Assembly (NCBI RefSeq): GCF_000744285.1
Contig: NZ_JQLQ01000002.1
Coordinates: 1,674,001-1,738,000, forward strand
From: Carnobacterium pleistocenium FTR1
GTDB lineage: Bacteria; Bacillota; Bacilli; Lactobacillales; Carnobacteriaceae
Reading direction: 5' to 3'
Length of the DNA stretch: 64,000 nucleotides
How positions within the stretch are numbered: the first letter of the stretch is position 1; each line of letters begins with the position of its first letter. Below are positions 11,002-56,228 of this stretch, piece after piece. The notes under the pieces were generated by a model, which saw nothing but the letters and a program-made list of their open reading frames with translations, searched no databases and was not told the origin of the DNA. A program made the position numbers and the translations under genes.

Positions 11002-11084
11002 TTTCATTTACCTCCTTGCACTTCTATTAAACTTAAAACAGATTCTATCTAGTATAAGACGTATCATTTTAATGCTACTTTATT

Positions 11085-11113: not shown

Positions 11114-11265
11114 CTAATTAGGTGAGGTTGCACGAATAATTAAAAGACTTATTTAACAACTAAATAAGGATAATGATTTTCCATTCAAACCTTTAAAAAT
11201 AGCTGTGTTGCTTTTTTTAGTTAATTATCAGATAGTGTTGGGTTATCAAAAAATATTTGCAAAAT

Positions 11266-11310
11266 AAAAAAACCACAAGACCTGACTAATCAGGAACTTA
11301 CGGCTTTTTT
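11266..11310 (-). terminator. rpsT terminator
   Basis: An imperfect stem built on CCTGA/TCAGG with flanking CAAG/CTTA arms, with T-run on both strands. It lies just after the rpsT stop. Between this and the uvrB promoter (11114-11265) I see no gene. Confidence 0.75.
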
Positions 11311-11325
11311 AATAACAATGATCTC

Positions 11326-11580
11326 TTATTTAGCTAATTTAGCAGATAAACGAGATTTATCACGGTTAGCTTTATTTTTATGAATCAATCCTTTAGATGC
11401 AGCCATGTCAATTGATTTGATTGCTTCTTTAAGTAATTGTTCAGAGTTTTCGTTACCTGCTTCAATAGCTTGAACGTATTTTTTAATAGCAGTACGCATT
11501 GAACTTTTTTGAACGTTGTTTTGTACAGCTGATTTTTCAGAAGTACGGACACGTTTGATTGCAGCTTCGATGTTTGGCAT
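11326..11580 (-). CDS. rpsT: 30S ribosomal protein S20
   Basis: 84 residues, Lys/Arg-rich and helical, with the family pattern [13 protein letters not shown] at the start and the [19 protein letters not shown] segment at the end. It binds the 5' domain and helix 44 region of 16S rRNA. GGGGTGA lies six bases before the ATG at 11580; a GTG at 11589 overlaps that site and is rejected. It is transcribed away from holA's start side and ends in its own terminator. Confidence 0.96.
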
Positions 11581-11727
11581 TTGATTCACCCCACTTTCAA
11601 TTATTTACAACTTAAAATAGTCTATTCCAGTTGTTTCAACAAATCTAATTATACATAAAGATACTCTCCAATGCAATAAAAATGTGTAAAGTTTTTTTAC
11701 TTGATAGCTATATACTCTCAAATCTCT

Positions 11728-12771
11728 TTATACATGTTTATTTGCTGACCTTTTTTGCGCATACTGTAGAACAAATAGCTCAAACTGCATTTCTTTATCG
11801 CCTATTCCTGTTTTCAAACGATACTCAGCATCAATTAATCCATTATAGGCATCTAATAATGCGTACTCCTCGATTTTCCTCATTTGCTGAAAAGCTAATT
11901 TCACACGGTAAGGATGGGTTTTTAACTGCTTAGCAATATCCCCTTGCTGATAGCCCTTTTTCTCTAAAATTTTAACTTGAATCAGTAATCGAAATTGAGA
12001 AGTCATGATTGCATTTATTTTAATTGGATCTTCTTTTTGCAACAGCAAGTCTTGATATAAAGTAAGCGCTTGTCCTACATCTTTTTTCAGGACATATTCA
12101 TTTAACGCAAAAATATTTTGTTCTAACGATTTAACTATTAATTCTTGAACAGCTTCTTTCGTAATAAATTTAGTATCTTGCGCATAAAGAAAAAGCTTGG
12201 GCAACTCCCCCATTGCCACAGATAGCTTAGCATCTGTTAATTGAATAAATAATTCAAACGCTTCTGGAGAGTAACGGTACTCTTCATTTGCAATTGTCTC
12301 TTTAATATATTTTCGCATCTCTTTTTCTGATAAGGTACTTACTTCAAGTATAGTAGCTGTTTTTTTTAGTAACTTCGTAATTTTTTTACGTTCATCTAAT
12401 TTTTCGTATGGCGCAAAGAATACAAGTGTCGTTGACTCAGAAGGGTGGGTCAAATAATCTTCTAGCCACTTTAGATCATGCTCTAACTTTGTTTTTGTTT
12501 TTTCACCCGTTAAGAAAAAAGGTCTGTCCACGAAAACAACACGACGGTCGCCAAAAAAAGGAATAGATTCTGCATCTTCTAAGGCAGTACCGACGGACAC
12601 TTCTTCCATATCATAGGCCCCATAGTTCAGTTCTAATTCTTCTGCATTTAATAAAGAATCAAGCAGCGTTTTTCTAGCTATGCTTGCCAAGTAGGTCTCT
12701 GTCCCTAATACGACGTAAATGCGAGCAATAGTCCCTTTTTTTATTTTTGCTAGCTCTGATACAAAATCCAC
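11728..12771 (-). CDS. holA: DNA polymerase III delta subunit
   Basis: Clamp-loader wrench subunit that opens the beta clamp. The 347-residue length from the GTG at 12771 equals the Bacillus protein YqeN, and GGTGG precedes that codon; the frame is open further to 12810 but without a good start. Family features include the YVVLGTETYLASIARK N-terminus and the FFGDRRVVFVDRPFF region. It follows comEC, as in many Firmicutes, where holA is downstream of the competence operon and upstream of rpsT. Confidence 0.9.
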   Translation of the reverse strand: MDFVSELAKIKKGTIARIYVVLGTETYLASIARKTLLDSLLNAEELELNYGAYDMEEVSVGTALEDAESIPFFGDRRVVFVDRPFFLTGEKTKTKLEHDLKWLEDYLTHPSESTTLVFFAPYEKLDERKKITKLLKKTATILEVSTLSEKEMRKYIKETIANEEYRYSPEAFELFIQLTDAKLSVAMGELPKLFLYAQDTKFITKEAVQELIVKSLEQNIFALNEYVLKKDVGQALTLYQDLLLQKEDPIKINAIMTSQFRLLIQVKILEKKGYQQGDIAKQLKTHPYRVKLAFQQMRKIEEYALLDAYNGLIDAEYRLKTGIGDKEMQFELFVLQYAQKRSANKHV

Positions 12772-12843
12772 TCTGTCCCACCACTTTCTTCTATTGTCTC
12801 TATGGTACAAAGCATTAAATCATTTTGCAAGACTATTAATGAT

Positions 12844-16669: not shown

Positions 16670-17416
16670 ATGACTATTGGAAAACAGTTTAGATTATATG
16701 CAGCTTATGGAATAATGATTGCTGTAAACGCTCTGGCAAATATCCTTCCAATAAATGGGTATCAAACAGGAGAGATTTCAGATATGCATGATGTTTTTTT
16801 TACTCCTGCGGGTTTCATTTTTAGTATTTGGGGAGTTATTTATCTTGCACTATTATCATGGCTGTTAAGTTTTAGTTTTAAAAAACAATCTTTAAGTCCT
16901 TCACAAAGTTGGGGATTTTTATTGACTTGTGTACTCAATATCATTTGGATTCTAGCCTGGCATTTTCTTTTAGACGGGATTGCTCTTATTGTTATTTTCT
17001 TACTGCTTTTATCGCTTATCTTTTTATATCAAACTCAAAGGAAAGCTACTTCTTCCAAAATCTACCTCATTCCTATTTCACTTTACTTAGGTTGGATCAT
17101 CGTTGCTACAATCACCAATTTTAATTATTGGTTGGTTGCTACTGTTGGAATCGATGTAAATCTCCAAGTATTGTTAACTTATATATCCTTAGCCTTGACG
17201 ACTCTTGTAGGCTTAAGGGTTGCCTTCTACTTAAAAGACTGGGCTATCATAGTGGTATTTATTTGGGCAATGTATGGGATATTCACAAAAAATTTGCCTG
17301 ATCATCGCTTAATAGCAATCGTCACTATTTTTTTGGCAAGTATCCTTCTAATAGGAATGCTCTTATCATTAGTGATTGATCAAAAACCAAATAAGAAAAA
17401 CTCTATCTTTTTTTAA
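16670..17416 (+). CDS. TspO/MBR-like tryptophan-rich membrane protein
   Basis: 248 residues with about seven hydrophobic segments. The N-terminus carries the segment NALANILPINGYQTGEISD and the tract FTPAGFIFSIWGVIY that I associate with proteins annotated as tryptophan-rich sensory (TspO/MBR-like) in lactic acid bacteria. AAGGGGTGATAAA precedes the ATG at 16670, so the frame upstream to 16541 is untranslated. Ligand and role are unknown; TspO proteins bind porphyrins and similar compounds in other organisms. It is monocistronic and ends in a strong terminator. Confidence 0.7.
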   Translation: MTIGKQFRLYAAYGIMIAVNALANILPINGYQTGEISDMHDVFFTPAGFIFSIWGVIYLALLSWLLSFSFKKQSLSPSQSWGFLLTCVLNIIWILAWHFLLDGIALIVIFLLLLSLIFLYQTQRKATSSKIYLIPISLYLGWIIVATITNFNYWLVATVGIDVNLQVLLTYISLALTTLVGLRVAFYLKDWAIIVVFIWAMYGIFTKNLPDHRLIAIVTIFLASILLIGMLLSLVIDQKPNKKNSIFF

Positions 17417-17423
17417 AACTATT

Positions 17424-17465
17424 GAAAAAGGGCTAGGACAAAATAAATTGTCCTAGCCCTTTTTC
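17424..17465. terminator. bidirectional terminator
   Basis: A perfect 18-base inverted repeat (GAAAAAGGGCTAGGACAA and complement) around a six-base loop, with A/T runs in the arms. It serves the TspO-like gene and the convergent ylbL-type gene. Confidence 0.85.
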
Positions 17466-17494
17466 ATTCTAGAATACTTTTTTGATTTACCCGT

Positions 17495-18538
17495 TTATAG
17501 ACTTTCTAAATAATCAATTGCATCTTGAAATGTTTTAACAGGTATAATTTTCATCTCTGTATCTATTTTTTCTGCAGCTTCGAGGGCTTCTTGATAATTA
17601 GAAGTCAACTCTGGATAATTAGCTTGTATGACTGGATCAATGGTGTCATCTGGAGCAAAAAAGAACGTCGCCCCTTCTTCACTAGCTGCAACAACCTTTT
17701 TATCGATTCCGCCGATTCGACCGATCGTCCCATCTGATTCTATCGTTCCAGTGCCAGCAATTTCGCTTCCCTCGCGCAAATCCTTGTCGATCAATTGCGT
17801 ATAAATCTGTAGTGCAAACATAAAGCCAGCAGATGGACCACCAATTTCTCCAGCATTTATAGCTACTGGAATATCGGTTTTAATCGAGGTATTATCTACT
17901 AAGGAAATACCTAGACCTGCTTTTTTAGTCTCATTCATCTCCATTAATTTATTAGAAATTGTCTGTTTTTCGCCATTGCGTTCATAGGTTACTTCGATTG
18001 TTTGACCAACTTTTTGTTGTTGCACATAGTCAATAAATTCAACTGAACTATCAAAGGATTGTCCATCAAGAGAAAGAATCGTATCCCCAATTGCTAGCTG
18101 TCCATCAAAATTAGAACCTTCTAATATAGACATGATATAAACGCCATTATACGTCAACTGATAACCTTTTCCAGCAGTATCATACGCCAATTCAATAGCT
18201 GAATTAATTGAACTCGTCATATAATAATTTTGTAAATTCGTATACTCTGCATCAGAAGTACCTGTCCCAAAAAGCTCTTCTCTAGTCAGTCCTTCATGAA
18301 AAGGCATGTACTTCATAAAATAGGTCAAGGGTGTAGCTCTTCGAATAGCAACAGTAGTCAACATAAAATGCCCTTCTTCTTGATCCTTTTCATTATTGAC
18401 TTCTACCAATTCATTTAGTTGAACAGCCGAACCAGGTCCTTCTATATAATAAGGTATAGGTAGAAACATTCCTGTAAGAATGAATATGATCAGCACAATA
18501 AAGAGTTTCTTATGATTTCTTTTTCCTTTGGGATTCAT
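17495..18538 (-). CDS. membrane-anchored PDZ/Lon-type (S16) protease, YlbL/SepM family
   Basis: 347 residues. An N-terminal membrane anchor (about 11-28) is followed by a PDZ domain (about 120-200) and a Lon-like serine protease domain with the Ser236/Lys281 dyad in GGPSAGFM and IGGIDKK. In streptococci SepM trims a competence peptide; in Bacillus YlbL is linked to DNA-damage checkpoint recovery. The ATG at 18538 has AAAGG nine bases upstream; the ATG at 18547 abuts it. It lies downstream of rsmD-coaD as in Bacillus. Confidence 0.9.
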   Translation of the reverse strand: MNPKGKRNHKKLFIVLIIFILTGMFLPIPYYIEGPGSAVQLNELVEVNNEKDQEEGHFMLTTVAIRRATPLTYFMKYMPFHEGLTREELFGTGTSDAEYTNLQNYYMTSSINSAIELAYDTAGKGYQLTYNGVYIMSILEGSNFDGQLAIGDTILSLDGQSFDSSVEFIDYVQQQKVGQTIEVTYERNGEKQTISNKLMEMNETKKAGLGISLVDNTSIKTDIPVAINAGEIGGPSAGFMFALQIYTQLIDKDLREGSEIAGTGTIESDGTIGRIGGIDKKVVAASEEGATFFFAPDDTIDPVIQANYPELTSNYQEALEAAEKIDTEMKIIPVKTFQDAIDYLESL

Positions 18539-18585
18539 TTCATTCATCCTTTGTGTGCATAATTTTACTCACTAGTTGACTCTCT

Positions 18586-19071
18586 TTAGTTTTTATACTT
18601 TCTTTTTATGGCTTCATTAACACCTACTGGAACAAGACTAGAAACATCTCCTCCGAACATCGCCACCTCTTTGATCAAACTTGAACTTAAAAAACGGTAT
18701 TTTTCATTTGACATTAAAAATATCGTTTCTATGTCCTTGTGCTGAATTTTATTCATTGTTGCAATAGTTGATTCATACTCAAAATCAGAATTATTGCGCA
18801 ACCCTCTTAATAACGTTACCGCTCCAATTCTCTTTGCTAAATCAACAGTCAGCCCGCCACTATGCTCAGTTACACTTATGTTTTCAATATGTGCTACTGC
18901 ATTTGTTATAAATGTCATTTTCTCTTCTAAAGAAAACAAAGCATTTTTTGAGGTATTAGTACTAACGGCAATTACGACTTGATCAAATAACTTTGAAGCT
19001 CTTTCTACCGTATCTAAATGCCCATTCGTAAATGGATCGAAACTTCCTGGAAATAAGGCTATTCTATTCAT
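18586..19071 (-). CDS. coaD: phosphopantetheine adenylyltransferase
   Basis: 161 residues. Transfers AMP from ATP to 4'-phosphopantetheine in coenzyme A synthesis. The nucleotidyltransferase motif [11 protein letters not shown] is at the N-terminus, and the late motif [10 protein letters not shown] is present. AGGGTGAG precedes the ATG at 19071, which overlaps the end of rsmD by eight bases, so the two are translationally coupled. The frame is open further upstream, but that is inside rsmD. Confidence 0.95.
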
Positions 19072-19636
19072 TTTTCTCACCCTGATCACTGTTGTATTCA
19101 TACATAACGATTTGGCTTGATCCATAAATTTCATTTCTAAAAGCAGTTGCTCCTCCAATTTTTTCTTTTAGATGTGTCCGCTTATCTAGCTCACAGATAA
19201 TAATAGCCTCATCATTTAGTAAATCAGAATTTATTATTTTTTCAATTTGTTTTTCAATTTCTTGTTCAGCATAAGGAGGGTCTAAAAATAACAGATCAAA
19301 CTTTTTATTGCCTTTCAACAAATCTATAGCTCGATTAGCGTCATTTCGATAAATCTCAAATTTCCCAGATTCTTTTGTAACGCTAATATTTTCTTTAATC
19401 GTTTTAATGGCTAACGGATCTTGATCAATCAATACAGCTTTGACCATACCACGGGAAACAGCTTCAATTGCTAATCCTCCGCTTCCAGCAAATAAATCCA
19501 AACAAGCTCCTCCATCAAAATATGGTCCGATAATATTAAAGATAGATTCTTTCACTTTATCTGTCGTGGGTCTCGTATTGTTTCCGGGAACAGCCTTTAA
19601 TTTTCTGCCTCCATATTCACCTGTAATAATTCGCAT
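19064..19636 (-). CDS. rsmD: 16S rRNA (guanine-966-N2)-methyltransferase
   Basis: 190 residues. Rossmann-type SAM methyltransferase with the SAM loop [14 protein letters not shown] and the catalytic LDPPYAEQ motif characteristic of N2-guanine methylation. The N-terminus [18 protein letters not shown] is typical. AAAGGAAG precedes the ATG. It heads a coupled pair with coaD. Confidence 0.94.
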
Positions 19637-19744
19637 ATTTAATCTTCCTTTCGTTTTTCACTCTACTTTACTAGTAGAAACAGATTTTATAATACTAAAT
19701 GCTAAACAAGCCGATATATGTATCGACTTATTCAGCATTTGTGA

Positions 19745-20058
19745 TTAAAAGACGGTCTCGCTAGATTTATTCTCTTCAATATGCTCTTTATTATTAGCAC
19801 TCTTTTTTTCTTTCCCAAAAAAATCTTTAAAATCTAAACTAATAAGAGGTCTATAAGATAGTTCTACTTTTCGAACGAAATGTAGTTCGCTTAATTTTTT
19901 TGCGTCATTTCTACATCAGATTGATTGATGTACATGACAACATATTTCATTCGTCGAGAGGCATAATGAATCAACCCAAAACGTTTAAGTGTTTTAAAGT
20001 GCCTTAAACTGTATACCCAAACTATGATCCCTTGTCTTTCATTTGTGGTTAACTCCAT
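19745..20058 (-). pseudogene. ylbG: YlbG-family (DUF2129) gene with a one-base frameshift
   Basis: From the ATG at 20058 (with AAAAGGAG upstream) the frame reads MELTTNERQGIIVWVYSLRH and continues to a TAA at 19891, only 55 residues. One base earlier in phase the homology resumes as LSELHFVRKVELSYRP and runs to a stop at 19745. From my memory of Bacillus YlbG the two parts match one continuous protein of about 90 residues, and here they would make 104. The break falls in a run of seven A within CAAAAAAATTAA. Possible causes are a real loss, polymerase slippage, a -1 ribosomal shift on A-AAA-AAT, or a sequencing error. It sits between the ylbC-like gene and rsmD, as in Bacillus. Confidence 0.75.
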
Positions 20059-42639: not shown

Positions 42640-42716
42640 AATTTTAATTAAGAGATAGGGCTTTGTTGTTATATCAATTCTTTCAAGTCCGTGCAACTAA
42701 ATTGCAATTAACTTAA

Positions 42717-42785
42717 AATTTTGCAATCTATGTAGATTTCTACCAATAGTTGTGAAATGAAAAAAACAGCCGTTAAAACGTCTTA
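42717..42785 (+). pseudogene. 3' remnant of a second satellite integrase gene and its downstream sequence
   Basis: The frame at 42720-42749 reads FAIYVDFYQ and a stop, matching the FANYVNF ending of the integrase at 54896-56044. The following 35 bases (42751-42785) equal the 35 bases at 56064-56098 with two differences. They lead into the same att core. This is the right end of an earlier, related element. Confidence 0.7.
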
Positions 42786-42799
42786 TTATAAAATATGTA

Positions 42800-42813
42800 A
42801 TGGAGTCTACGGG
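42800..42813. repeat. left attachment repeat of the satellite
   Basis: ATGGAGTCTACGGG, identical to 56146-56159, where it forms the 3' end of the tRNA gene. It marks the left junction of the island. Confidence 0.75.
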
Positions 42814-43267: not shown

Positions 43268-44263
43268 TTATTCTCCATAGTTGTCAATAGTTAACTTTAA
43301 GATTTTAAAAAAATATAAAATTTCACTATCTTTATCTAAATATGAAAAACGCTCAATACTTTTTTCAACTAATGAACTTAAAGATTCTATTCTATAACGT
43401 CGTGAGCCTTCACCATTAACAAATCTATCATGTGCATATAAAACACACAGTATATCGTGTATTTTAGGAGCAGAATAGAAAGTCCTTTTTACTCCACATC
43501 TTTGTAGATATTTTTTTAAATCAGAATTCACTGAACTTATATTACCCTTACTCAAGTTAAATAAATAAGGATTATTATGCACACTAATATTTCTTATAAC
43601 TCTCACCCCAGTTAGGAGTCCTCTAATTGAGTTAATATCAATATCATCTTCAGGATACCTTCTAAAATAATACAAGAATAGATTGATTAAATCACCAAAT
43701 GACATAACTTCAATAGCTGCCCAAATTGGAGGACAATCTTTATGAGTTAGGTACAAGCTATGTTGATAACTAGCAGGATTTCTCGCTTTCTTAAATAAAT
43801 ATTCTTTTGTTAATGGAATAGTCGATCTTTCAGTAGATTGTATAAACCCTTCTATAACATCGTAGCCATCTGTTTCTTGGTTATCTGTAACTCTTTTCAT
43901 TAGCAATGTTTTTAAACTATGCTCAATATCTAAAGTAAAAGAAGCTAGAATATATCTAAGTTGCATATCAACACTTGCTATGTCACTTAAATAAGAGAAC
44001 TCTAAATTAATATAGTTTCTTTGTGCATTTTTTTTGAAATTTCTTTTATAGACTGTGATTTTATAGAAGTAATTTAATTCTTCAAGAATTTCTTTTGCTT
44101 CAGACCGATTTTTAATATTAAAACCTACGCCACGTTCTTCTAAACTATCCAGCAATAAATCTAGTTCTTTCTTTGGATATATAGACTTATGCGCTTTGAT
44201 AACCTCTAAAATTCTTTTTTTTTCTTCTTCATCTTCAAAAAGCTGCTCAACTTGGTTAGTCAT
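43268..44263 (-). CDS. Abi_2 family abortive-infection protein (AbiD/AbiF-like)
   Basis: 331 residues. The profile fits the Abi_2 phage-defence family: a central segment ASVDMQLRYILASFTLDIEHSL and, near residues 224-229, RNISVH, an R-x4-H motif of HEPN ribonucleases. Such proteins are thought to act as RNases that halt infected cells. The ATG at 44263 has GGGAG nine bases upstream; a GTG at 44281 lies before that site. It has its own sigma-A-like promoter, so it can be expressed in the dormant state. It lies at the island edge, the usual cargo place. Confidence 0.8.
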   Translation of the reverse strand: MTNQVEQLFEDEEEKKRILEVIKAHKSIYPKKELDLLLDSLEERGVGFNIKNRSEAKEILEELNYFYKITVYKRNFKKNAQRNYINLEFSYLSDIASVDMQLRYILASFTLDIEHSLKTLLMKRVTDNQETDGYDVIEGFIQSTERSTIPLTKEYLFKKARNPASYQHSLYLTHKDCPPIWAAIEVMSFGDLINLFLYYFRRYPEDDIDINSIRGLLTGVRVIRNISVHNNPYLFNLSKGNISSVNSDLKKYLQRCGVKRTFYSAPKIHDILCVLYAHDRFVNGEGSRRYRIESLSSLVEKSIERFSYLDKDSEILYFFKILKLTIDNYGE

Positions 44264-44295
44264 TTGCACATTCTCCCACACATCTTTTTATTACT

Positions 44296-44428: not shown

Positions 44429-44713
44429 TTATTTCTCTTTTTTATATACGCCTGCTAACCATTTATCTAATTCATAACGGTTAAAGCGGTAAATACGACC
44501 TACATTAACTCCTGGTATCTCTTTGTTGTCCAACATGTCTTTGATAGTAGGTTCGCTTACACCAATGTATTTGGAAGCTTCCTTCATAGTCATCGCTGGG
44601 CTTTCTGCATCATATTTTTTGATAACTTCTACTTGCATTTCTTGAAGCAGTTCACGCAATTGAGTTTTATTTGTGACAATTAAATCATCAGATACTTGTA
44701 ATTGGATTGACAT
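44429..44713 (-). CDS. excisionase-family helix-turn-helix protein
   Basis: 94 residues. The C-terminal half is a winged/MerR-like HTH of the excisionase type: MTMKEASKYIGVSEPTIKDM followed by VNVGRIYRFNRYELDKWL. The N-terminal half is a short helix. AGGAGGTATAAAA precedes the ATG at 44713. It lies far from the integrase and beside the abi gene, so it could be a recombination directionality factor for the left end or a local regulator. A second HTH protein of this type is at 53391. Confidence 0.75.
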   Translation of the reverse strand: MSIQLQVSDDLIVTNKTQLRELLQEMQVEVIKKYDAESPAMTMKEASKYIGVSEPTIKDMLDNKEIPGVNVGRIYRFNRYELDKWLAGVYKKEK

Positions 44714-44967
44714 TTTTATACCTCCTAAATTGATTTTACTCAATTGTACTTCTTTTTCAAACTAATACATACAACATAGATCTTACTAATTTGGTAACCC
44801 CATGTTTTTACTATACTGCCATCAAAAGAAAGTCATTTCAGCTGGCTCCCAATGTTAAACTTAGACCGTCAAATATAGTGTCAATCAGAGGTGTTCTAAG
44901 CACGTTACTAATAAATTTATGTATGACTATCTATACAAGTCCCTTATAACAAGCCATCTTGAAGTCA
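44714..44967. other. intergenic region before the excisionase-like gene, no gene seen
   Basis: About 250 AT-rich bases holding the start region of the 44429-44713 gene. No coding frame can be supported, and I cannot name a clear promoter. Confidence 0.3.
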
Positions 44968-45003
44968 AAAAAAGCCACCTCATTTAAGAGATAGCTTTTT
45001 TTA
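44968..45003 (-). terminator. terminator of the leftward satellite operon
   Basis: AGCTATCTC and the GAGGTGGCT arm pair around a short loop just after the tape-measure stop codon, with T-run on both strands. It separates the operon from the excisionase/abi unit. Confidence 0.75.
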
Positions 45004-45017
45004 AACTGAGATAGGAA

Positions 45018-47123
45018 CTAATACATTCTGCCGCGCATCTGTCTTTGAGCATTCCAAGCTAATGCTACATCCATACCTTGCGAAGTAGCCTGTACAATCT
45101 CTTTACCATCAATTTGTACAGAAGTTTGAATTGGTCTGCTAGCTAATCTTTCAATTGCACTTAAAATGGCCTTAAAATCGCTATTATGACTAGTAGAGTT
45201 ATTATAATTTTGGTTATTTAACCTAGCAGATTCTCCCATAATACTGCTTGCAGCGATAGCACTTGGAGTATCAGTCACAACACTTGCCATTCCCATTGAA
45301 ACATTGAAATTGTCAGATAAGCCACTGGCCATCCCGCTAACTGTTTTTTGAACATTTTTAAATTTGTCCTGCAACCCTTTATCCAAACCGTTCATAATTG
45401 CATTACCTGCTGGGATTAGTAGCTTTCTATCATATTCGATTGGCCCTTTATTGTCAGCTATCCAATCAGCAATACCACTTACAAATTTCTTAACACCTTC
45501 ATAAGCAGATTTAAGCCCTTTTAAAAAACCTTCTATGATAGCTTTACCTGCATCACGCAAGTTTATTTCTGAAACAGAATTGATGATGGTACTAGCAACA
45601 TCAGCAACCGCACTCAGTACATCAGGTATCATTTTGATAAGTCCCGAAACTAATTTTCCAATAATTTCTTTCCCTGTAGAAATAATTTCAGGAAGTTTAG
45701 ATATGATATAGTTCACAAATTTACCCATGATATCCATCGCTGCAGCAGCCATTTTTGGCGCATTTTCTGAAATTGTTGACACTAGTTGACCCAACAACTT
45801 GATACCGGTATCTACTAACTGAGGTAAATTTTCAAGAAGTAAATCAACTAATTTCTTCATCACGCTTAGTGCTGCTTCCCCAATTTTAGGCAATGCTGAA
45901 ATAATACCTTGTTGTAAATTATCTAGTAGCTCGATTCCTTTTTCCATAATTAACGGCATATTTTCTTTTATAAATCCGATAAATGTTTCGATTATAGAAC
46001 CCGCCGTTGTAATAATTTGTGGAATAGATTGGAGAATACCATTAGCTAGACTGGTCAGAATTTGAATCCCAGAATTTAGTAAAGTTGGTAAATTTTCAGT
46101 AACCCAAGTGGATATGCTGGTTATGATTCCTTGAAATGAAGTTATGAAATTAGGAATTCCTGTGGTAATACCATTAGACATTTGTGTAAGCATCTCGCTA
46201 CCTGCTTCTAGGAACATCGGCGCCGATGTGGTTATAAACGTAGTAAGTGCTCCTGGAAGCGCCTTTAGAATATTCCCAACCATTGGGAGAAAATTTTCAA
46301 ATAAGAATGTAGATGTAGTTGTGGCCAAAGCTTGTAATGCTGGTTGAATATCTTGACCTAGTGATAAACCACCCAAAACGTTAGCAAAGGCTGCTTTCAT
46401 AGAAGCTAATGATCCACTAAATGTTTCAGCTGATTCTTTTGCCGTTGTTCCTGTAATCCCCATTTCTTCTTGGACTGCATGAATAGCACTGTAAACGTCA
46501 TCCAAGTTGCTAATATCGTACTTGACACCAGTTAATGCAGTAGCATCCGCTAGCAATCTTTCCATTTCTGTTTTCGTCCCACCATAACCAAGTGAAAGGT
46601 TATCTAACATCGTATAGTTTTGCTTCGCAAATCCTTTATAAGCATCTTGGATACTCTCCATATTGGATCCCATTTTGTTAGCATTATCGGACATATCTAT
46701 TAAAGCCATATTTGCTTTATCTGCTGCTGCTTCAGTATCTCCGCCCATAGATTGCAAAAGACTTGCACTAAAGCTTGTAACACTTTCCATATACGCATTT
46801 GAAGACAATCCAGCTGTTTTATAAGCTTCATTTGCATAGGCTTTAACTTTGTCAGCACTACCTTTAAATAACGTTTCAATCCCGCCTAAAGATTGTTGGA
46901 GAGCTGCACCTTCTGTCAAAGATTTTCCAATGATTGCACCCAAAGCAACTCCTGCGGCGGCAATTGATGCTGCTGCAGCTACTTTTAATCCCGCACCTAA
47001 TTTACTACCTGCGCTTTTACCTGCAGAAGTCGCTTCGGGATCAAATTGTTTTTGAATTGATCCTTGTATACCTTTAGCTGAAGGCATAATTTGTATATAT
47101 GCTTGACCTAATTCTGTTGCCAT
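45018..47123 (-). CDS. phage tail tape-measure protein
   Basis: 701 residues. The N-terminus [19 protein letters not shown], a hydrophobic Ala/Gly stretch (about 48-65), repeated amphipathic helices of about 35 residues through the middle (leading residues of the type [16 protein letters not shown]) and the C-terminal [18 protein letters not shown] segment are typical of siphophage tape-measure proteins. These proteins set tail length and reach the host membrane. AAAGGTGATAATAA precedes the ATG and the frame is intact. It is the only recognisable virion gene in the island. The 90 bases upstream hold only a short start-less open tail (ending KAIGREEGKKKKER) that may be left from a neighbouring phage gene. 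Confidence 0.9.
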
Positions 47124-47213: not shown

Positions 47214-47774
47214 TTATTTATGTTTCTGTGAAATCAATCGGCCATAAATCCTGCCCTCTACTTTTATACTTTCCAATACTTTCTCCACAAAATTTTCTTC
47301 AAAGATACTAACTTCATTAATCAATCTTATTGTCTTAGTATTCCATTTATTGTAATAGTCAATTTCACTTTCTTGGTAGGCTTCCCAATATTCTTTACTG
47401 TTGGGTTTTGCCAAGCTCATACGGGCTTCTGGATCGCCATTCTTTGCCTTTATCTCTAGTTCATTATTTCTCTGATCACGTTGTTTTTCTGTTCGCTGTT
47501 TTAGTTCAGCTTTTTTCAATCGTATTCGTTCTAATTCTTCAGCAGTTTGTACTTCCTTTTTCTGTTGCCTTTGAACCGTTTTATTAATACGTTGCTTTTC
47601 TTTATAGTTTGTTTCTGTTTCCCAATTCTTACGCCTGTTTTTTCTTCCTTGGTTCCTGCATTCGTCACTACAATATTTATTATTCGAGTGTTTAGATTCA
47701 AAAGATTGATTGCATATAGTACAAATTAAAGTACGTATAATGTACCCTCCTTTCATTCCAATTTGTGTTGGCAT
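47214..47774 (-). CDS. Cys4 zinc-finger, coiled-coil protein of unknown function
   Basis: 186 residues. The N-terminus carries CTIC...CSDEC, a four-cysteine zinc finger seen in phage and plasmid proteins, followed by a charged Lys/Glu/Arg helix (about 45-115) and a mixed C-terminal part. The start is uncertain: the ATG at 47774 lacks a ribosome-binding site, while a strong AAAGGAGGG stands six bases before an ATA codon at 47738, just ahead of the zinc finger. A mutated or non-AUG start is possible. It is 90 bases upstream of the tape-measure gene. Confidence 0.6.
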   Translation of the reverse strand: MPTQIGMKGGYIIRTLICTICNQSFESKHSNNKYCSDECRNQGRKNRRKNWETETNYKEKQRINKTVQRQQKKEVQTAEELERIRLKKAELKQRTEKQRDQRNNELEIKAKNGDPEARMSLAKPNSKEYWEAYQESEIDYYNKWNTKTIRLINEVSIFEENFVEKVLESIKVEGRIYGRLISQKHK

Positions 47775-47865
47775 AGTTATTCAATATAAACCCTATAAAC
47801 CACTACACGTCTACTTTATGCCTCTGGTAAACTCTTAATAAGTTGGGACACGAGGAAATTCGTAC

Positions 47866-47954
47866 AGTGACAGCGTGAAGGACGAATGAAAGACAAGAGG
47901 GGTACCCATGCCCCCATCATTTATCTCGTCTACTAACTTATATTTGCTGTCACT
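47866..47954. other. structured non-coding segment with GC-rich core
   Basis: AGTGACAGC (47866-47874) and GCTGTCACT (47946-47954) form a perfect nine-base outer inverted repeat. Between them lies GGGGTACCCATGCCCCC (about 47899-47915), one of the few GC-rich spots in the AT-rich island. No gene covers it. It could be a structured RNA, a packaging (cos-like) site or a protein-binding site. A single CACGTCTA, the complement of the arm site, lies nearby at 47806-47813. Confidence 0.4.
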
Positions 47955-47990
47955 ATCACTTAATTTTTTATTTAATTTAATTTTTTTATT

Positions 47991-48411
<421 letters not shown>

Positions 48412-48450: not shown

Positions 48451-48804
48451 TTATCTATTACGTTCGTTTATTTCTTTTACCATTTCTCTTATATCTGCGT
48501 CTTCATCTACTGTACTCAATCTGTTTTTCTTTCTAATTATCTCAATTTCTGCCTGTGCCTTTTCGGTTTCTTCTTTGATTTCCATTTCAATTTTAGCTTC
48601 TCGTTCTTTCCTTGCTCGCTCCCCGTCTTTAGCTAACAATTCATTCCATGCTTTAGATTCAGCTTCTTGAGCTACTACTTGTTTCTCTCTAATTTTCTCT
48701 TGGTATTCAGCACGTTCTTCTTGTTCACGTTGTGCTCCTTTATAGATTGCTTCAACGTCTAGCCTGTTAACGTTTCTTTCTAATTGTTCTGCTAGTTTGC
48801 TCAT
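48451..48804 (-). CDS. charged coiled-coil protein of unknown function
   Basis: 117 residues, about half of them Glu, Lys, Arg or Gln, probably one long helix. The N-terminal LDVEAIYKGAQREQEERAE is shared with the broken paralogue at 48012-48411. The ATG overlaps the stop of the upstream gene as TAATG, so the two are translationally coupled. I do not recognise a family. The position just before late genes would suit a small virion-modifying or scaffolding-like protein, but this is a guess. Confidence 0.6.
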   Translation of the reverse strand: MSKLAEQLERNVNRLDVEAIYKGAQREQEERAEYQEKIREKQVVAQEAESKAWNELLAKDGERARKEREAKIEMEIKEETEKAQAEIEIIRKKNRLSTVDEDADIREMVKEINERNR

Positions 48805-49421
48805 TACTTATCTTCTCCTTTTGTATTAATAATTTGAGTAGCGTGGCTATTAATAAGGTACTCAATACCTTGTAAGATTGAGTTATCTTTGTATTCATTT
48901 CTTAATCTATCCGCACTAATCGACGTTTTATTCTTTCGAGCGTCCGCCATTTGTTTTTCATAACTGTTTTTGTAGATATTATTTTGCAAGTGACTTAGTA
49001 ATTGATTTGCCTTCGTATATGGTGGAACAATTTCATCTTTAATTGCTTCTAATTCCTGCAATAATTTACTTGCTCGCTTCGCCATTTCTTCATTAATTTT
49101 ATCCATTTCTGACTTAATTTGTTTTGTATAATCGTTGTATTCTGCTTCTGTGATGTATGGATTGTTTTTCAGCTCTTCAATTTTACCTGTGTAGTATTCT
49201 GCAATATCGCTTGCTGTACGCTTATCAGCAATAACTTTTGCATATGCTTTTGGGTCACTTCCTTGTTTCGCTTTGATAACGGCTCTATTTGCTTCATTTT
49301 CGCTTTCTGTAGCTGTTTCTACTTCTTGAAGGTATTCCTGTTCTTTCTGTTTTCCGTCCGTTAAAATTGCTTGTAATTCTTCCTCAATCTTGTTTAATTC
49401 TTGCATAGTTTTATTTGTCAT
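48804..49421 (-). CDS. helical coiled-coil protein of unknown function
   Basis: 205 residues. Two predicted helical, Glu/Lys-rich regions (about 5-75 and 95-135) flank a short PYITEAEYNDY turn. No signal peptide or membrane segment. AAAAGGAG precedes the ATG. It is the first of a coupled pair with 48451-48804. I do not recognise it; similarity in style to phage scaffold or minor structural proteins is only general. Confidence 0.6.
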   Translation of the reverse strand: MTNKTMQELNKIEEELQAILTDGKQKEQEYLQEVETATESENEANRAVIKAKQGSDPKAYAKVIADKRTASDIAEYYTGKIEELKNNPYITEAEYNDYTKQIKSEMDKINEEMAKRASKLLQELEAIKDEIVPPYTKANQLLSHLQNNIYKNSYEKQMADARKNKTSISADRLRNEYKDNSILQGIEYLINSHATQIINTKGEDK

Positions 49422-49447: not shown

Positions 49448-49846
49448 TTATTTTTTAAGTTCAATTGAATTAAATCTTTCGCCATATAAGCATTTATTAT
49501 CCTCAACAACTTCATTAATAATATCTACAATAGTTGCTCCACTTGATAGAGGCTTTTTGGATACTACAACATGTTTATTTAACTTAATCTCAATCGCTTG
49601 TCTTTTCTTATAGTAGTCGGATTTATCTATACCGTATTTTTCAGCCATAACTTTGTCACTGTCAGGTCTTTTTCCAGTAGATAAGTAATATTTATCCCAC
49701 AATAAACGATATTCATATTCAGTTAATTCTTTAAGCCCTACATATAAAGATTTTAAATTCTCTTTGTCCTCTGCGTTCATTCTTTCAGTCATTTTACGCC
49801 AATTTGCTAACAACCGAGATAAGCTTAATTTGCTAATCATTTCCAT
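49448..49846 (-). CDS. sigma-factor-like phage regulator (ArpU/RinA-like)
   Basis: 132 residues. The central part LTEYEYRLLWDKYYLSTGKR...VMAEKYGIDKSDYYKKRQAIEIKL looks like a sigma-70 region-4 type helix-turn-helix, as in late-gene activators of Gram-positive prophages. If so, it could switch on the promoter of the downstream coiled-coil, zinc-finger and tape-measure genes. GGAGG precedes the ATG. It begins two bases after the stop of the 49849 gene. Family assignment is tentative. Confidence 0.5.
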   Translation of the reverse strand: MEMISKLSLSRLLANWRKMTERMNAEDKENLKSLYVGLKELTEYEYRLLWDKYYLSTGKRPDSDKVMAEKYGIDKSDYYKKRQAIEIKLNKHVVVSKKPLSSGATIVDIINEVVEDNKCLYGERFNSIELKK

Positions 49847-49848: not shown

Positions 49849-50346
49849 TTAAACCTCCAATAGTTTAAGCATTTGATTTAAACTTTCGTTCGGATCTGAT
49901 TCATCAACTAGTTTATTAGTCAGTATAATAGGTATGACCCCACTTATTTGATACGAGGCAGCTTCTTCAATCTCGCTAACTTCATCAAATATTAAGTTAT
50001 CAAGTTTATCATTAAATGTTTCTTTACGGCGTTTGTAGCGGTTTGAATAGTATTCTTTATCCGAACTGCTTAACTCCATCCAAAACCTTTCAAAGTGCTT
50101 TAATTTGAACCGCAGCGTCTTTATATGCTGTTCGGCCACTTCAATAGCAGCAACATGATTCGTTACTTCTTTTTCTAATCTGAAAGCGACTGTTGTCATT
50201 TCTTCATATCTTTCTTGAATGCAGGTATAAAAGTTTTTGTTATTAAAGTCTTGTTCGTATTCTTCAATACGTTCTTTAGCTCTATCAATTCTTTGTTGGA
50301 TGTAAAAATAAGTAGAAACAAGATCTTCATTGTCCAAGTTTGCCAA
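49849..50346 (-). CDS. phage-type helical protein, possible regulator
   Basis: 165 residues starting at a TTG with GGAGG nine bases upstream. Long helices in the first 100 residues, then LSSSDKEYYSNRYKRRKETF, which has the look of a sigma-like DNA-recognition segment. Phages often encode two consecutive proteins of this kind before late genes. I do not recognise a named family. Two bases separate it from the next gene. Confidence 0.5.
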   Translation of the reverse strand: MANLDNEDLVSTYFYIQQRIDRAKERIEEYEQDFNNKNFYTCIQERYEEMTTVAFRLEKEVTNHVAAIEVAEQHIKTLRFKLKHFERFWMELSSSDKEYYSNRYKRRKETFNDKLDNLIFDEVSEIEEAASYQISGVIPIILTNKLVDESDPNESLNQMLKLLEV

Positions 50347-50855: not shown

Positions 50856-51683
50856 CTATACTTTTAGACCATCCATTCTTTTGTCTACAGTTTTTTTAAA
50901 TATTACTGTTTTCATATTTTTACTCATTCTTGAAATTAATTTTCCGTCATACATTTCTTCCAGCTCTTTCCAAGATAAATTAGTTGTAAATATGGTACTT
51001 TTATCTTGTCTTTGATCCATTACGCTATATAAAACCCTATGAGAGAAATCGCTCGCTCTCTTTGTGGTACCAACAGCTCCGACAGAACTTCCGATATCAT
51101 CAAGTACTAAATATTCAACTTTCCCTAATAGGTTTATAAAATAATCTTCTGTATATTTAGATTGGTTATCAGAAAAGCTAGCTCTAATCTTTCTTAGCAT
51201 TGCTACTTCACTTACATAAAGACAAGATTTATTTTTACCTTCAGATTCATTAAGATTTTTCAATGTAGCCATGCTTAAATGTGATTTTCCAACTCCTGGT
51301 TGCCCCATTAAAAATAGATTGAACACTTCATTATTTTGGCATCTTTTTACTACATCAATCATTATCTGTTTGTTACTTTGTTCTTCATCCGTTTTGGTAA
51401 TGTAATTTTTGAATCCTGCGTTTAATAAAGTCATATCTCCTACTACTGATTTTTCTAAAAATACTCTATGTTTTATTTTATTTTCCCTCTTTTGAAATAT
51501 ACCTTGATTATCAAGTTCGATTTGTTTGTTTTTCTTTTCTACTTCACACTTAGGACAAATAATTTCGCCATTCCTAAGTTCCATTAGTTCATACTTTTCA
51601 TGGCCTTCTACTTTACAATGCTCAGAAAGGTAAGTAGTCTTCGTTCTTTCCATGATTGGTTTCATCATTTCTTGTAAGTTCAT
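50856..51683 (-). CDS. DnaC/DnaI-like helicase loader ATPase
   Basis: 275 residues from the ATG at 51683, which has AAAGGAG before it. A putative Cys-rich N-terminal zinc module (EHCKVEGHE, CPKC) is followed by an AAA+ domain with Walker A GQPGVGKS at 127-134 and Walker B LVLDD at 192-196. It would load the host replicative helicase at the satellite origin. Its start lies inside the 3' end of the replisome-organiser gene (62-base overlap), linking their translation. Confidence 0.85.
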   Translation of the reverse strand: MNLQEMMKPIMERTKTTYLSEHCKVEGHEKYELMELRNGEIICPKCEVEKKNKQIELDNQGIFQKRENKIKHRVFLEKSVVGDMTLLNAGFKNYITKTDEEQSNKQIMIDVVKRCQNNEVFNLFLMGQPGVGKSHLSMATLKNLNESEGKNKSCLYVSEVAMLRKIRASFSDNQSKYTEDYFINLLGKVEYLVLDDIGSSVGAVGTTKRASDFSHRVLYSVMDQRQDKSTIFTTNLSWKELEEMYDGKLISRMSKNMKTVIFKKTVDKRMDGLKV

Positions 51684-52485
51684 TACTAGCACTCCTTTCG
51701 TTTATGAACGGATCATCATACTTATTTTCATTTTGATTTATTCTATTAGTTTTAGTTTTTTTATCATATTCATCATTCCACCGTTCTTTTCGGAACCATC
51801 TGCCACCATCCATTGGTTTTAACCAATCTTTGTTTGCTTCAAGGTGGTTAACATATCTTTCAACACCCTTTTTTATATCATCAATAGATGTTCCGTTTTT
51901 AATTACTTTCTTAAATGCAGCTTCCGCATCTTTCTTAGCAGTTTTTTTAGGATATAATTTCCAAGCTTCTTCAAAAGAATGAGTAATCAAATCTTGATTC
52001 GAAGTATTTTCTTTTACTTGTTTATCATTGTTATCATTGTTTAAAGATTGTTGTTTGTGGTCAACTCGCTGGTCACTTGTTGGACGGTCGCTGGACGTTT
52101 GATGGTCAATGACTTGGTCGTTTACTTTTTTTGTGTCTTGATAATCGTTGTAATGGCATATAGTTATAAGAGTATAGTTGTTGGTCGTTTGCTTGGTTAA
52201 AAAACCATACTTTTCTAATTTATCCAAAGTTGTTCGGATTTTTCGCTCGGTCACTTCATTGTCCTTTTTAAACCATTCTTTTATCTTTGCTCTCGAAGTA
52301 ACAAGCTGACCTCGCTTAATTTCTACGGAAATATCTTTGTAAATATCGTGCCACGTATTATCTTTGTGATTCGCATTTAGCACTAGGTAGATAGCAATAA
52401 TTCTTTGAATAGCGGTCAAGCGGTTAAACGTATCACTATTCATTAATTTTCTATGCAGTGCTATCCAACCGCTATTCTCTGGCAT
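51622..52485 (-). CDS. phage replisome organiser (DnaD-like initiator)
   Basis: 287 residues. The N-terminal 110 residues form the winged-helix origin-binding domain of phage replisome organisers (GWIALHRKLMNSDTFNRLT). A Gln/Asn/Asp-rich linker follows, then a helical segment EEAWKLYPKKTAKKDAEAAF found in DnaD-like or replication proteins of phages. AGCGGTGATTAA precedes the ATG. With the loader it makes a two-gene initiation module for autonomous replication. Confidence 0.8.
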   Translation of the reverse strand: MPENSGWIALHRKLMNSDTFNRLTAIQRIIAIYLVLNANHKDNTWHDIYKDISVEIKRGQLVTSRAKIKEWFKKDNEVTERKIRTTLDKLEKYGFLTKQTTNNYTLITICHYNDYQDTKKVNDQVIDHQTSSDRPTSDQRVDHKQQSLNNDNNDKQVKENTSNQDLITHSFEEAWKLYPKKTAKKDAEAAFKKVIKNGTSIDDIKKGVERYVNHLEANKDWLKPMDGGRWFRKERWNDEYDKKTKTNRINQNENKYDDPFINERSASNELTRNDETNHGKNEDYLPF

Positions 52486-53390: not shown

Positions 53391-53669
53391 TTATATTTGA
53401 TTTTCTTTCAAGAATCGATTGATTTCAGTTTTAGAAATTAACGTGATTCCTTCAACTGTTGCAATCTTTAACCCTTTAGATTTCCATAATTGGATTGTCC
53501 CGTATGATATATTAAGCCACTCACACGCTTCTTTTTGTTTCAGCCACTCTTTGCCGTAACAAGCTTCTTGCTGTTTAGCTGCAGCAATAGCTTCTCTTGC
53601 TGCAATAGTTAGCATTGCTTTGAATTCGTCTTGAAATGTATCTGGTACCGGTATTTGCAGATTTGCCAT
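53391..53669 (-). CDS. excisionase-like helix-turn-helix protein
   Basis: 92 residues. The second half, WLKQKEACEWLNISYGTIQLW followed by KIATVEGITLISKTEINRFL, is a MerR/excisionase-type winged helix. The first half is a helix rich in Ala. AAAAGGAGG precedes the ATG. Second gene of the leftward operon, a typical place for a satellite excisionase or early regulator. Confidence 0.7.
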   Translation of the reverse strand: MANLQIPVPDTFQDEFKAMLTIAAREAIAAAKQQEACYGKEWLKQKEACEWLNISYGTIQLWKSKGLKIATVEGITLISKTEINRFLKENQI

Positions 53670-54038: not shown

Positions 54039-54081
54039 ATATTTGTATTTAAAATGCAGATCTAAAAGGATGGTATTTTAC

Positions 54082-54837
54082 ATGATAAAATTAAATTTAG
54101 ATTCCATTATGAAAGAAAAAAACCTTAGTATTAGTGATATTAGTAAAGATACCGGCATTGCTAGAAGTACATTAACCCCTATAGTAAAAAATCCCGATGA
54201 TGTAAAGTCAGTCAGATTTGATACTTTAGATAAGCTGTGTGGATACTTAGATGTAGATCTATCCGATTTATTAATTTATTCTCCTAACAAAACTGGTATG
54301 AAATTAATTAAGATGTGGATTTCTAAAAATCGAGAATTTGGAATTTTTGAAATTAAAAGAATTACTACATTCTCTGAAAAGTCTGCGTTTGTTTCATTTG
54401 GTATCGGCCATTCAGATAGTGAGAATCATTTGAAAGTTGCTCTTGAGATTATGGATAATCACGAATTAAGTATTTTAAACAACAAAGTTAAAGGATTCGA
54501 AATAAAAAATTCATTAGAGCCAATGGAACAAAAAGACTTTAAACAGATTATTCAAAATGCAAGTAGAAAAGAACTTTTTGAATTAACTTTACAAATCGCT
54601 ATATCTTTCTTTACTACAAAGCAACATGACTACGATGCAAGTACTATAGAATTATATTGGGCTGTAGGTAGCTTGTTTTTAGATGGTGTTAAAAATACAT
54701 TTATTTTTGATCATGATAAAATTAATGAAAATATATATGATATTAGCGATTACAATGATGCTGTTAATACAATCAGAACTAATAGCAATATAAGTTATTT
54801 AGATAGTGAAGACTTTAAAATATTTTTCGAAAAATAA
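54082..54837 (+). CDS. satellite repressor-like protein (XRE-type HTH, Stl-like position)
   Basis: 251 residues from the ATG at 54082. The N-terminal 65 residues are an XRE helix-turn-helix (ISDISKDTGIARSTLTPIVK). The remaining 185 residues are mixed alpha/beta and I do not recognise them. In staphylococcal satellites the equivalent gene encodes Stl, the master repressor whose C-terminal part is bound by a helper-phage protein; the same role is likely by position only. AAAAGG stands 12 bases before the start. Confidence 0.7.
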   Translation: MIKLNLDSIMKEKNLSISDISKDTGIARSTLTPIVKNPDDVKSVRFDTLDKLCGYLDVDLSDLLIYSPNKTGMKLIKMWISKNREFGIFEIKRITTFSEKSAFVSFGIGHSDSENHLKVALEIMDNHELSILNNKVKGFEIKNSLEPMEQKDFKQIIQNASRKELFELTLQIAISFFTTKQHDYDASTIELYWAVGSLFLDGVKNTFIFDHDKINENIYDISDYNDAVNTIRTNSNISYLDSEDFKIFFEK

Positions 54838-54895
54838 AAATTCAGACAAATCCCTCTTACCCCCGTTCCCCGTGGTAGAAAAGAGGAGCAACACA

Positions 54896-56044
54896 ATGGC
54901 AAATATTAGAAAATACACTAAAAAAGATGGTACTGCTGCTTATATGTTTCAAGCTTATCTTGGTACTGATTCAGCTACGGGCAAACGTATTAGAGTAACT
55001 AGACAAGGTTTTATCACAAAAAAAGAAGCCCAACTCTCACTATCTCGCTTGAAAATCGAGATTGAGGAGCAAGGCTATAAAAAGAACAAACGATATAAAT
55101 TTAATGAAGTATACGAGTTATGGCTAGAACAATATAAGAATACTGTAAAAGAAAGCACGTTAAATAAAACTATTGAAATCTTTAATTACCATATTTTGCC
55201 TTTGTATGGCCACTTATATATGGATAAGATCACGGTAGTATTCTGTCAAGAAGCTGTAAACAAATGGTATAAGAGTGTTCAAAAATTTAAAGCTATAAGC
55301 AACTATGCTTCCCGGGTATTCGATTATGCTATCACAATTGGCATATTAGAGAAAAACCCTGTTAAAAAGATTAGTATGCCAACTAAGAAAGTAAATGTAC
55401 AAGAAGATAAAATTTTGAACTTTTACGATAAAGAAGAACTAACTCAATTCTTTAATTGTTTAAAAAAAGAAGATGACCCTGTACAACTAGCACTATTTAG
55501 AACGTTAGCATTCTCTGGTGCACGTAAAGGCGAAATTTTAGCCCTGCAATGGCGTGATATTAATTTTACAGATAACTACATTAAAATAAATAAAACTGTC
55601 ACATTCGGCTTAAATAACGTTTTAATCATACAAACTCCTAAAACAAAAACTTCTGTCCGTACTATCTCAATGGATGCTCAAACAATGGCTATTCTTAAAT
55701 CATGGAAAAAAATACAAAAAGAAGATTACTTGAAGTTAGGCTTCAATACATTAAACCCTACTCAATTAGTTTTTCCTAGTACTAAAAATACCATTATGCA
55801 GCCACCTAAAGTTGGAAAATACCTGGATCGTATTATAGAAAGATACGAACTAAAGAGAATCACAACTCATGGGCTTAGACATAGCCATTGCTCGATATTA
55901 TTTGAAGCTGGTGCAACAATTAAAGAAGTACAAGACAGACTAGGCCATTCAGATATTCATACCACCATGAACATCTACGCACATGTATCTAAAAAGGCTA
56001 AAGAAAACACCGCTGAAAAATTCGCAAACTATGTAAATTTCTAA
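54896..56044 (+). CDS. int: tyrosine recombinase integrase
   Basis: 382 residues. An AP2-like arm-binding domain (about 1-60), a SAM-like core-binding domain (about 70-160) and the catalytic domain with Arg210, the HGLRH box (His325, Arg328), His351 and the nucleophile Tyr361. GAGGAG precedes the ATG at 54896. The gene points toward the tRNA attachment site about 100 bases downstream. The sequence before it holds CGTTCCCCGTGG, an inverted copy of the left-end hairpin arm. Confidence 0.92.
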   Translation: MANIRKYTKKDGTAAYMFQAYLGTDSATGKRIRVTRQGFITKKEAQLSLSRLKIEIEEQGYKKNKRYKFNEVYELWLEQYKNTVKESTLNKTIEIFNYHILPLYGHLYMDKITVVFCQEAVNKWYKSVQKFKAISNYASRVFDYAITIGILEKNPVKKISMPTKKVNVQEDKILNFYDKEELTQFFNCLKKEDDPVQLALFRTLAFSGARKGEILALQWRDINFTDNYIKINKTVTFGLNNVLIIQTPKTKTSVRTISMDAQTMAILKSWKKIQKEDYLKLGFNTLNPTQLVFPSTKNTIMQPPKVGKYLDRIIERYELKRITTHGLRHSHCSILFEAGATIKEVQDRLGHSDIHTTMNIYAHVSKKAKENTAEKFANYVNF

Positions 56045-56126: not shown

Positions 56127-56146
56127 ACTTATCATAAATCACAGTA

Positions 56147-56217
56147 TGGAGTCTACGGGAATTGAACCCGTATTAACTGGCTGCCAGCCAGTCGTAATCC
56201 CATTATACCAAGACCCC
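56147..56217 (-). tRNA. tRNA-Ala (GGC), attachment site of the satellite
   Basis: The minus strand folds as a 71-nt cloverleaf: acceptor GGGGTCT/AGACTCC with the G3-U70 wobble that marks alanine tRNAs, anticodon stem ACTGG/CCAGT, loop CTGGCAG (anticodon GGC), T-stem ACGGG/CCCGT with loop TTCAATT, and discriminator A. The D-arm is short (GTA/TAC) and the 3' CCA is not encoded, so the molecule is unusual. The att repeat is its 3' end. Confidence 0.6.
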
Positions 56218-56228
56218 AGAGTAGAACG

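Follow-up and report, generated by a model that had tools for sequence, protein, structure and literature searches.

A lone tape-measure gene in an apparent satellite of Carnobacterium pleistocenium, and its recurrence in related elements of the Lactobacillales

The window, i.e. the whole stretch of 64,000 nucleotides analysed here (Carnobacterium pleistocenium FTR1, contig NZ_JQLQ01000002.1, positions 1,674,001 to 1,738,000), contains an island of ~13.35 kb located between two identical 14-bp att cores, ATGGAGTCTACGGG, of which the left one lies at 42800..42813 and the right one at 56146..56159, within the 3'-terminal part of a minus-strand tRNA gene (56146-56218). Reading from the right, the island opens on the plus strand with a tyrosine integrase (54806..56044, PF00589, E 3e-27) and a cI-type repressor (54043..54837), the latter being divergent from the operon. 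The minus strand then carries regulators, including an HTH/excisionase-like one (53391..53669), a replication initiation protein (51622..52485, phrog_270, E 3.3e-28), a DnaC-like helicase loader (50856..51692, phrog_50, E 2.3e-65), the satellite marker protein p165 (49849..50346) and p132 (49448..49846), a 132-aa protein that distantly matches a family of phage transcriptional activators. These are followed by the coiled-coil proteins p205 (205 aa, 48804..49421), which is homologous to Orf14 of bIL311 and to further satellite proteins, and p117 (117 aa, 48451..48804), which has a motif in common with proteins of the elements L120 and L121 (by eye) and no blast match outside the window genome. 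Next come a 62-aa coiled-coil protein (48223..48411), which is a frame-disrupted relative of a 129-aa gene in the satellite L142, a zinc-ribbon protein of 186 aa (47214..47774) with relatives in Lactobacillales satellites and in the Streptococcus satellite phage Javan218, and a tape-measure protein (TMP) of 701 aa (45018..47123). Past the TMP gene lie a terminator-like stem-loop (44960..45012, minus) and, beyond this terminator and still on the minus strand, an excisionase-like HTH protein (44429..44743) and an abortive-infection cargo gene of the Abi_2/AbiD type (43268..44281). Set against the 129-aa satellite coiled-coil homologue, the stretch 48020-48411 shows an out-of-frame continuation after the 62-aa gene. 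The stretch 47775-48222, of which part is this out-of-frame rest, gave short weak matches only when it was checked for a packaging site or helper signal.

An integrase at one end with flanking att repeats, divergent regulators together with an own replication module, and a size of 10-15 kb without recognised capsid, portal and large terminase genes are among the features by which a PICI is recognised, and these are all present here; the island is best read as a helper-dependent satellite of the PICI type. PICIs redirect packaging or capsid assembly with genes such as TerS, Ppi and Cpm. In the PHROG scans of the window island no known family of packaging or capsid-redirecting genes was matched, and coiled-coil genes to which no role could be assigned are present there; TerS families were found in the related satellites L232, L276 and L286. 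The preliminary description had stated that the TMP gene is the only virion gene of the island, and this was borne out, in that the 18 further island ORFs taken as genes had no match to families of tail, capsid, portal or terminase proteins when the integrase was scanned with Pfam and the remaining 17 with PHROGs.

On the outer side of the left att core, positions 42712-42785 are 77% identical to the end of the island integrase gene and are a vestige of an element that sat at this tRNA earlier. A similar 86-bp stretch is found elsewhere in the genome (G000:C2:2241909-2241994). That an older element sat here would suit the view that the island is what deletion left of a prophage formerly equipped with a full tail module. 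Full tail modules in close relatives, which would point to such a remnant, had been named beforehand as a finding that would undo the interpretation as a satellite tool. The island, by contrast, has identical att cores and its own integrase, regulators and replication genes, its marker p165 is absent from phage records, and no tail module was seen in any of the relatives read (see below), so that an origin as a prophage remnant is rejected as highly improbable.

The TMP gene is encoded on the minus strand (47123->45018), while a plus-strand reading of the same stretch contains many stops. It starts with ATG, is preceded by a good ribosome site, AAAGGTGATAATAAATG, and is intact and complete, as had been claimed for it. 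The protein matches the PHROG tape-measure family phrog_58 (E 1.6e-87), its residues 1-216 match positions 21-235 of 235 of phrog_6900 (E 9e-84), and 1687 of 50,697 phage records match it in tblastn, with prophages of S. agalactiae being the best (47% identity over residues 1-699). Thus, the family match extends over the full length in PHROG and phage records, and the protein is full length relative to phage TMPs and of the type found in streptococcal and lactococcal prophages. A position amid tail genes, after the chaperone and before the distal tail genes, was not found for the window TMP, whereas this order is present in the prophages L123 and L312 (by eye). Directly 3' of the gene, the 53 nt at 44960-45012 form a strong terminator-like stem-loop with a T run (-21 kcal/mol, z -6.7; 0 of 200 shuffles were as good), which is not among the 6 sites of a separate terminator consensus scan that would return 5.8 by chance. 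The TMP gene had been described as ending the satellite operon, and it is indeed the last gene of the main operon, but two island genes lie past its terminator. In a PADLOC scan the window TMP had no match, and the TMP of the satellite L232 matched LmuB weakly (E 2e-4 to 3e-4).

The closest kin of the window TMP within the genus is the 800-aa TMP of the G002 prophage L123, where it lies among head and tail genes in the usual order (roles by eye). The identity between the two is unevenly distributed: residues 1-300 have 92, 94 and 83 identical positions per 100 (~90%), followed by 28 and 24 per 100 in residues 301-500, 59 per 100 in 501-600 and 23 per 100 in 601-700, and the prophage protein is 99 aa longer. 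A second pair, from the genome G318, consists of the 765-aa TMP of the satellite L291 and the 790-aa TMP of the prophage L312, which has head and tail genes in the usual order (by eye). These proteins are 58% identical overall, with 82 and 63 per 100 in residues 1-200, then 22, 22 and 41 per 100 in the middle, 90 and 86 per 100 in residues 501-700 and 56 of 65 at the C-terminus, and the satellite protein is 25 aa shorter. Such conserved ends with an exchanged middle would fit a protein that docks with a given helper tail and brings its own ruler. The pattern is suggestive only, because mosaic TMPs may be usual among phages too. The TMP of the resident prophage L127/L128 resembles the window TMP in residues 501-600 only (56 per 100) and does not have its N-terminal type, so that a copy from the resident prophage is rejected as the origin of the window gene. 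Part of this prophage is repeated beside an integrase on a 16-kb contig (G000 C3, L243), which is either another copy of the prophage or an unresolved repeat. Searches with phrog_58 revealed no TMP outside the satellite stretch in 6 of the 12 TMP-satellite genomes (G031, G033, G048, G167, G176, G352) and a single weak match in a seventh (G003); thus about half of these genomes are without a visible resident helper of kindred tail type.

The N-terminal part of the window TMP is under strong constraint, with dN/dS values of 0.07 against the phage fragment L125 (179 codons) and 0.09 against L123 (residues 1-290). When changes were assigned to branches with three outgroups, the satellite branch had 11, 15 and 10 replacement and 21, 24 and 15 silent changes, and the phage branch 16, 15 and 17 replacement and 19, 26 and 23 silent changes. 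The two branches are similar and no relaxation is visible on the satellite branch, although part of the constraint may predate the capture of the gene, and the relaxed selection that had been named as a refuting outcome left no sign at the N-terminus. The C-terminal part is less constrained (dN/dS 0.25-0.87 where not saturated). At L125:9564-12885 (genome G013), an inserted ORF, which by eye resembles an HNH-type gene and lies possibly within an intron, interrupts the prophage TMP gene after codon ~180.

Related satellites were sought with a profile built from three p165 proteins in 395 genomes of the order, which are species representatives drawn evenly from a larger group. The profile gave 31 matches in 27 of the 395 genomes, some of them weak (E up to 7.6e-5), and 30 places were kept after an 84-residue fragment with a stop (G273:C59:45936-46220) had been dropped. 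For the window p165 neither PHROGs nor phage records gave a match, and the scan of viral contigs returned one locus, L274 (see below). An open TMP gene of 694-1644 aa is present at 11 of the 30 places, encoding proteins of 701 aa (window), 1143 aa (L232), 694 aa (L276), 1054 aa (L283), 792 aa (L286), 771 aa (L290), 765 aa (L291), 1644 aa (L292), 962 aa (L294), 793 aa (L296, where N occupies only 17265-20000, outside the TMP) and 782 aa (L298). One further place, L297, has only a C-terminal half of 369 aa, and one, in G127, could not be classified with 7001 N in its first 8 kb. The remaining 17 (in G304, G007, G372, G118, G063, G022, G125, G358, G051, G092, G322, G353, G141 and G152, the second element of G352, and twice in G273) showed no TMP, either in blastp searches with five TMP queries or on inspection of the ORF lists; of the TMPs counted above, the 771-aa protein of L290 was missed by blastp and recognised by eye. 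The TMP is thus not essential to the satellite family. No tail module was seen in the surroundings of any of the 30 places, and no integrase was found within the stretches examined for L283 (an 8.6-kb contig), L291 and L142.

A further TMP satellite, L120 (TMP of 822 aa), was found through its zinc-ribbon gene; its contig ends soon after, so that the right end was not seen. The zinc-ribbon profile matched in 10 of the 395 genomes, several of the matches being weak. The alignment had no relative among viral contigs, and neither the protein nor the island DNA matched plasmids. The window protein is 32% identical to that of Javan218 over 158 aa, and a search with its homologue from L121 matched 14 phage records, 12 of named satellite phages and 2 of phage Str-PAP-1. 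L121 itself (G048:C35, 12.2 kb) is a contig of plasmid-like character which, by eye, encodes ParA- and replication-type proteins. The satellite genes for p169/p181, the coiled-coil and the zinc-ribbon proteins are present on it as well; parts of a single gene lie at its two ends, so that the contig may be circular and a plasmid-satellite hybrid. In L122 (G001:C4:2015000-2034999, positions 6421-10128), a decayed sister island of the same genus, an integrase fragment of 93% identity and a scrap of the zinc-ribbon gene flank a transposase-like gene (by eye).

One of the p165 places is a second satellite in the window genome itself, L232 (G000:C2:650000-669999, element at 100-14710), which contains an integrase, a primase-type protein, a TerS (PF03592), homologues of p165 and p132, and the 1143-aa TMP. 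The latter has the Pfam domain TMP_3, and its phage matches include the Clostridioides phage phiC2 (E 2e-89) and the Streptococcus phages Javan308 and EJ-1, of which phiC2 and EJ-1 are contractile-tailed. The two TMPs of the genome have no blastp match to each other at E 1e-5, and both match phrog_58. Thus, two satellites of one genome each have a TMP as their only recognised tail gene. On the viral contig L274 (IMGVR_UViG_2576861401_000002), the proteins that were compared are 100% identical to those of L232.

On the basis of the PHROG tape-measure families used for assignment, the satellite TMPs are diverse. The best families are phrog_58/6900 for the window and L120, phrog_991 for L290, L291, L296, L297 and L298, phrog_1068 for L232, phrog_1535 for L292, phrog_58/1686 for L286 and L294, and phrog_5493/1204 for L276 and L283, indicating at least five TMP groups within one satellite type. 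L290, a satellite of the window's genus, has an integrase that is 77% identical to that of the window island and the same kind of host gene neighbours, and its TMP belongs to another group. The preliminary description had called for a search for single TMP genes in other Lactobacillales satellites, and with 11 of the 30 p165 places and L120 such genes were found; judging from the gene content of these elements, TMPs that are the sole recognised tail genes are a recurrent and exchangeable feature of a Lactobacillales satellite family.

Other virion-type genes were sought in the TMP satellites besides the window, L232 and L120. From nine of them 136 ORFs of 60-439 aa were picked, of which 110 were run against both Pfam and PHROGs and a further 14 against PHROGs only, the rest being mostly replication proteins; 8 ORFs of L232 and L120 were likewise scanned with PHROGs, as was the L298 capsid homologue again. 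TMPs apart, the scans thus covered ORFs of up to 439 aa and few of the replication proteins. No tube or chaperone was found in the nine satellites, L232 and L120 among the families listed (14 of 14 for Pfam; 25 of 31 and 25 of 29 for PHROG). The sole tail-associated match among them is a DUF6711/phrog_1194 protein in L292, which is 52% identical to the product of the gene 3' of the TMP gene in L231, a resident prophage of the window genome. As to the other virion matches, scaffolds were found in L283 and L286, small terminases (TerS) in L276 and L286, and major-capsid homologues in L286 (phrog_840) and L298 (phrog_10). The major-capsid homologue and the TMP occur together at L286:3493-8427 and L298:3928-7821. 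Satellites without a TMP can have single head genes as well, namely a major-capsid homologue (L275:11406-12575) and prohead proteases (L278:6081-6677 and L282:11510-12106), and by its gene content this satellite region resembles a slot that takes single homologues of virion proteins.

The satellites L296 and L297, from different species (G350 and G222), are 96.6% identical over 7.1 kb and 98.6% identical in the downstream stretch, while their TMP alleles differ and that of G222 is shortened to 369 aa, its first half being lost. This pair represents a natural replacement at the TMP gene and also demonstrates that a satellite TMP gene can decay. The expectation that the gene be free of frame damage in sister islands was thus borne out for the 11 with an open TMP and failed for L297. 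Replacement with loss is also what would be seen if TMP genes were captured from prophages by recombination and had no function in the satellite, and such a passive role could likewise account for the high N-terminal identity to a same-genus phage and for the lack of a TMP at more than half of the places. The N-terminal kinship could stem from a phage origin of the gene, part of the selection having acted before it was captured. However, a TMP was taken repeatedly alone (once with one neighbour) and from at least five TMP groups, the frames are open, N-terminal constraint shows no visible relaxation on the satellite branch, and the window gene has its own ribosome site and a terminator-like stem-loop, so that functionless cargo is considered unlikely.

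It was only in 2026 that satellites were reported to control the tails of their helpers, namely in Vibrio: PLE1, PLE4 and PLE11 of Vibrio cholerae were shown to have their own TMP and chimeric tails (PMC12987554). The PLE TMPs are built into virions with exclusion of the phage TMP, PLE tails are ~10 nm shorter, as predicted, and deletion of tmp lowered transduction by 96% to ~99.9% (PMC12987554). The notion that an isolated TMP would be a strategy unknown before is therefore outdated. In both cases the satellite has its own TMP of another length (a difference of 95 aa for PLE and of 99 aa between the window and the nearest same-genus phage), and most other tail proteins must come from the helper. 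PLEs also encode a tail chaperone, and PLE11 a baseplate hub protein; furthermore, the PLE helper ICP1 is contractile and the PLE TMPs are 20% identical to its TMP (PMC12987554). The pairing of tmp and tac seen in PLE was not found in the window, where the PHROG family scans matched no chaperone family, and the window element differs in being PICI-type, from Lactobacillales and with a TMP of the streptococcal and lactococcal prophage type. Putative tmp genes are also mentioned for cf-PICIs in that report (PMC12987554). These elements are capsid-forming, whereas in the window island Pfam and PHROG scans recognised no capsid gene; the relatives L286 and L298 do have both a major-capsid homologue and a TMP.

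Among known satellites, Javan218, Javan571 and bIL311 have zinc-ribbon and/or coiled-coil proteins in common with the window island and resemble it in how their integrase, repressor, replication, coiled-coil and zinc-ribbon genes are ordered, while the window TMP had no match in their records (tblastn only, E 1e-4). Capsid redirection in SaPIs and PICIs is also carried out by CpmAB. For Ccm and Rcm, as proposed here for the TMP, a single satellite protein is reported to redirect helper assembly, and Ccm is reported as a homologue of a virion protein; these systems target the head, whereas the window case concerns the tail ruler. No report of an own TMP in Lactobacillales satellites was found in the literature searched, which included few subscription papers and no bioRxiv preprints. 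Compared with PLE, what appears to be new here, from gene content and alignments, is thus the occurrence in Lactobacillales of a TMP that is alone, recurrent and exchangeable.

By analogy with PLE, the satellite TMP probably replaces the TMP of the helper in the tails of satellite particles. During growth of a helper phage in its host cell, the satellite would express its own TMP from the main operon, and the conserved ends of this TMP would engage the tail-assembly chaperone, the tip proteins and the tube of the helper, so that satellite particles would receive helper-made tails around the satellite TMP. Use of the helper's chaperone, none being recognised in the island, would explain why the ends are conserved; they would keep compatibility with one helper tail type while the middle differs. 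Tail length corresponds to ~0.15 nm per TMP residue, and for a protein ~100 residues shorter than the nearest same-genus phage TMP tails ~15 nm shorter are predicted. A change in tail length is only one possible use, beside the conceivable change of host range and poisoning of helper tails raised in the preliminary description, because the satellite TMPs span 694-1644 aa and are not uniformly short; a general rule of shorter satellite rulers is rejected on the same grounds, with L291 merely 25 aa shorter than L312. As to the advantage that we infer, a private TMP would allow tails that are less well served by the helper's own TMP, or could escape TMP-targeting immunity; the satellite's tails might also be preferred to those of the helper.

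The match of both the N- and C-terminal parts to phage TMPs would also be expected if the satellite protein acted by interference, i.e. if an excess of TMP titrated chaperone, tube or tip proteins of the helper and cut its progeny, with a use in particles being secondary or absent. There are satellite- or prophage-borne precedents, since Tai (PMC11364771) and likewise Rta (PMC12987554) block tail assembly, and the G222 satellite retains only the C-terminal 369 aa. An inhibitor, however, would need no whole ruler, and 11 of the 12 p165 satellites with any TMP have open full-size genes; moreover, satellites themselves need tails. Interference as the main role is therefore regarded as rather unlikely.

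For the replacement of the helper TMP, the diversity of the satellite genes tentatively suggests a broader reading, which we hold with less confidence than the replacement itself: the family may have an exchangeable “ruler slot,” in which one TMP, drawn from many phage tail types and without chaperone, tube or tip genes, re-specifies helper tails, its ends being compatible with one helper and its middle replaced. If so, single-protein tail piracy would be common in this satellite family and would stand beside the single head genes of its other members. Should lone TMPs function in satellites of the Lactobacillales, a single protein may suffice for tail piracy, which may then be frequent in Gram-positive hosts, and the natural TMP variants would then offer a ready test of TMP roles beyond length, such as the choice of tail partners, the evasion of tail-targeting immunity and DNA entry.
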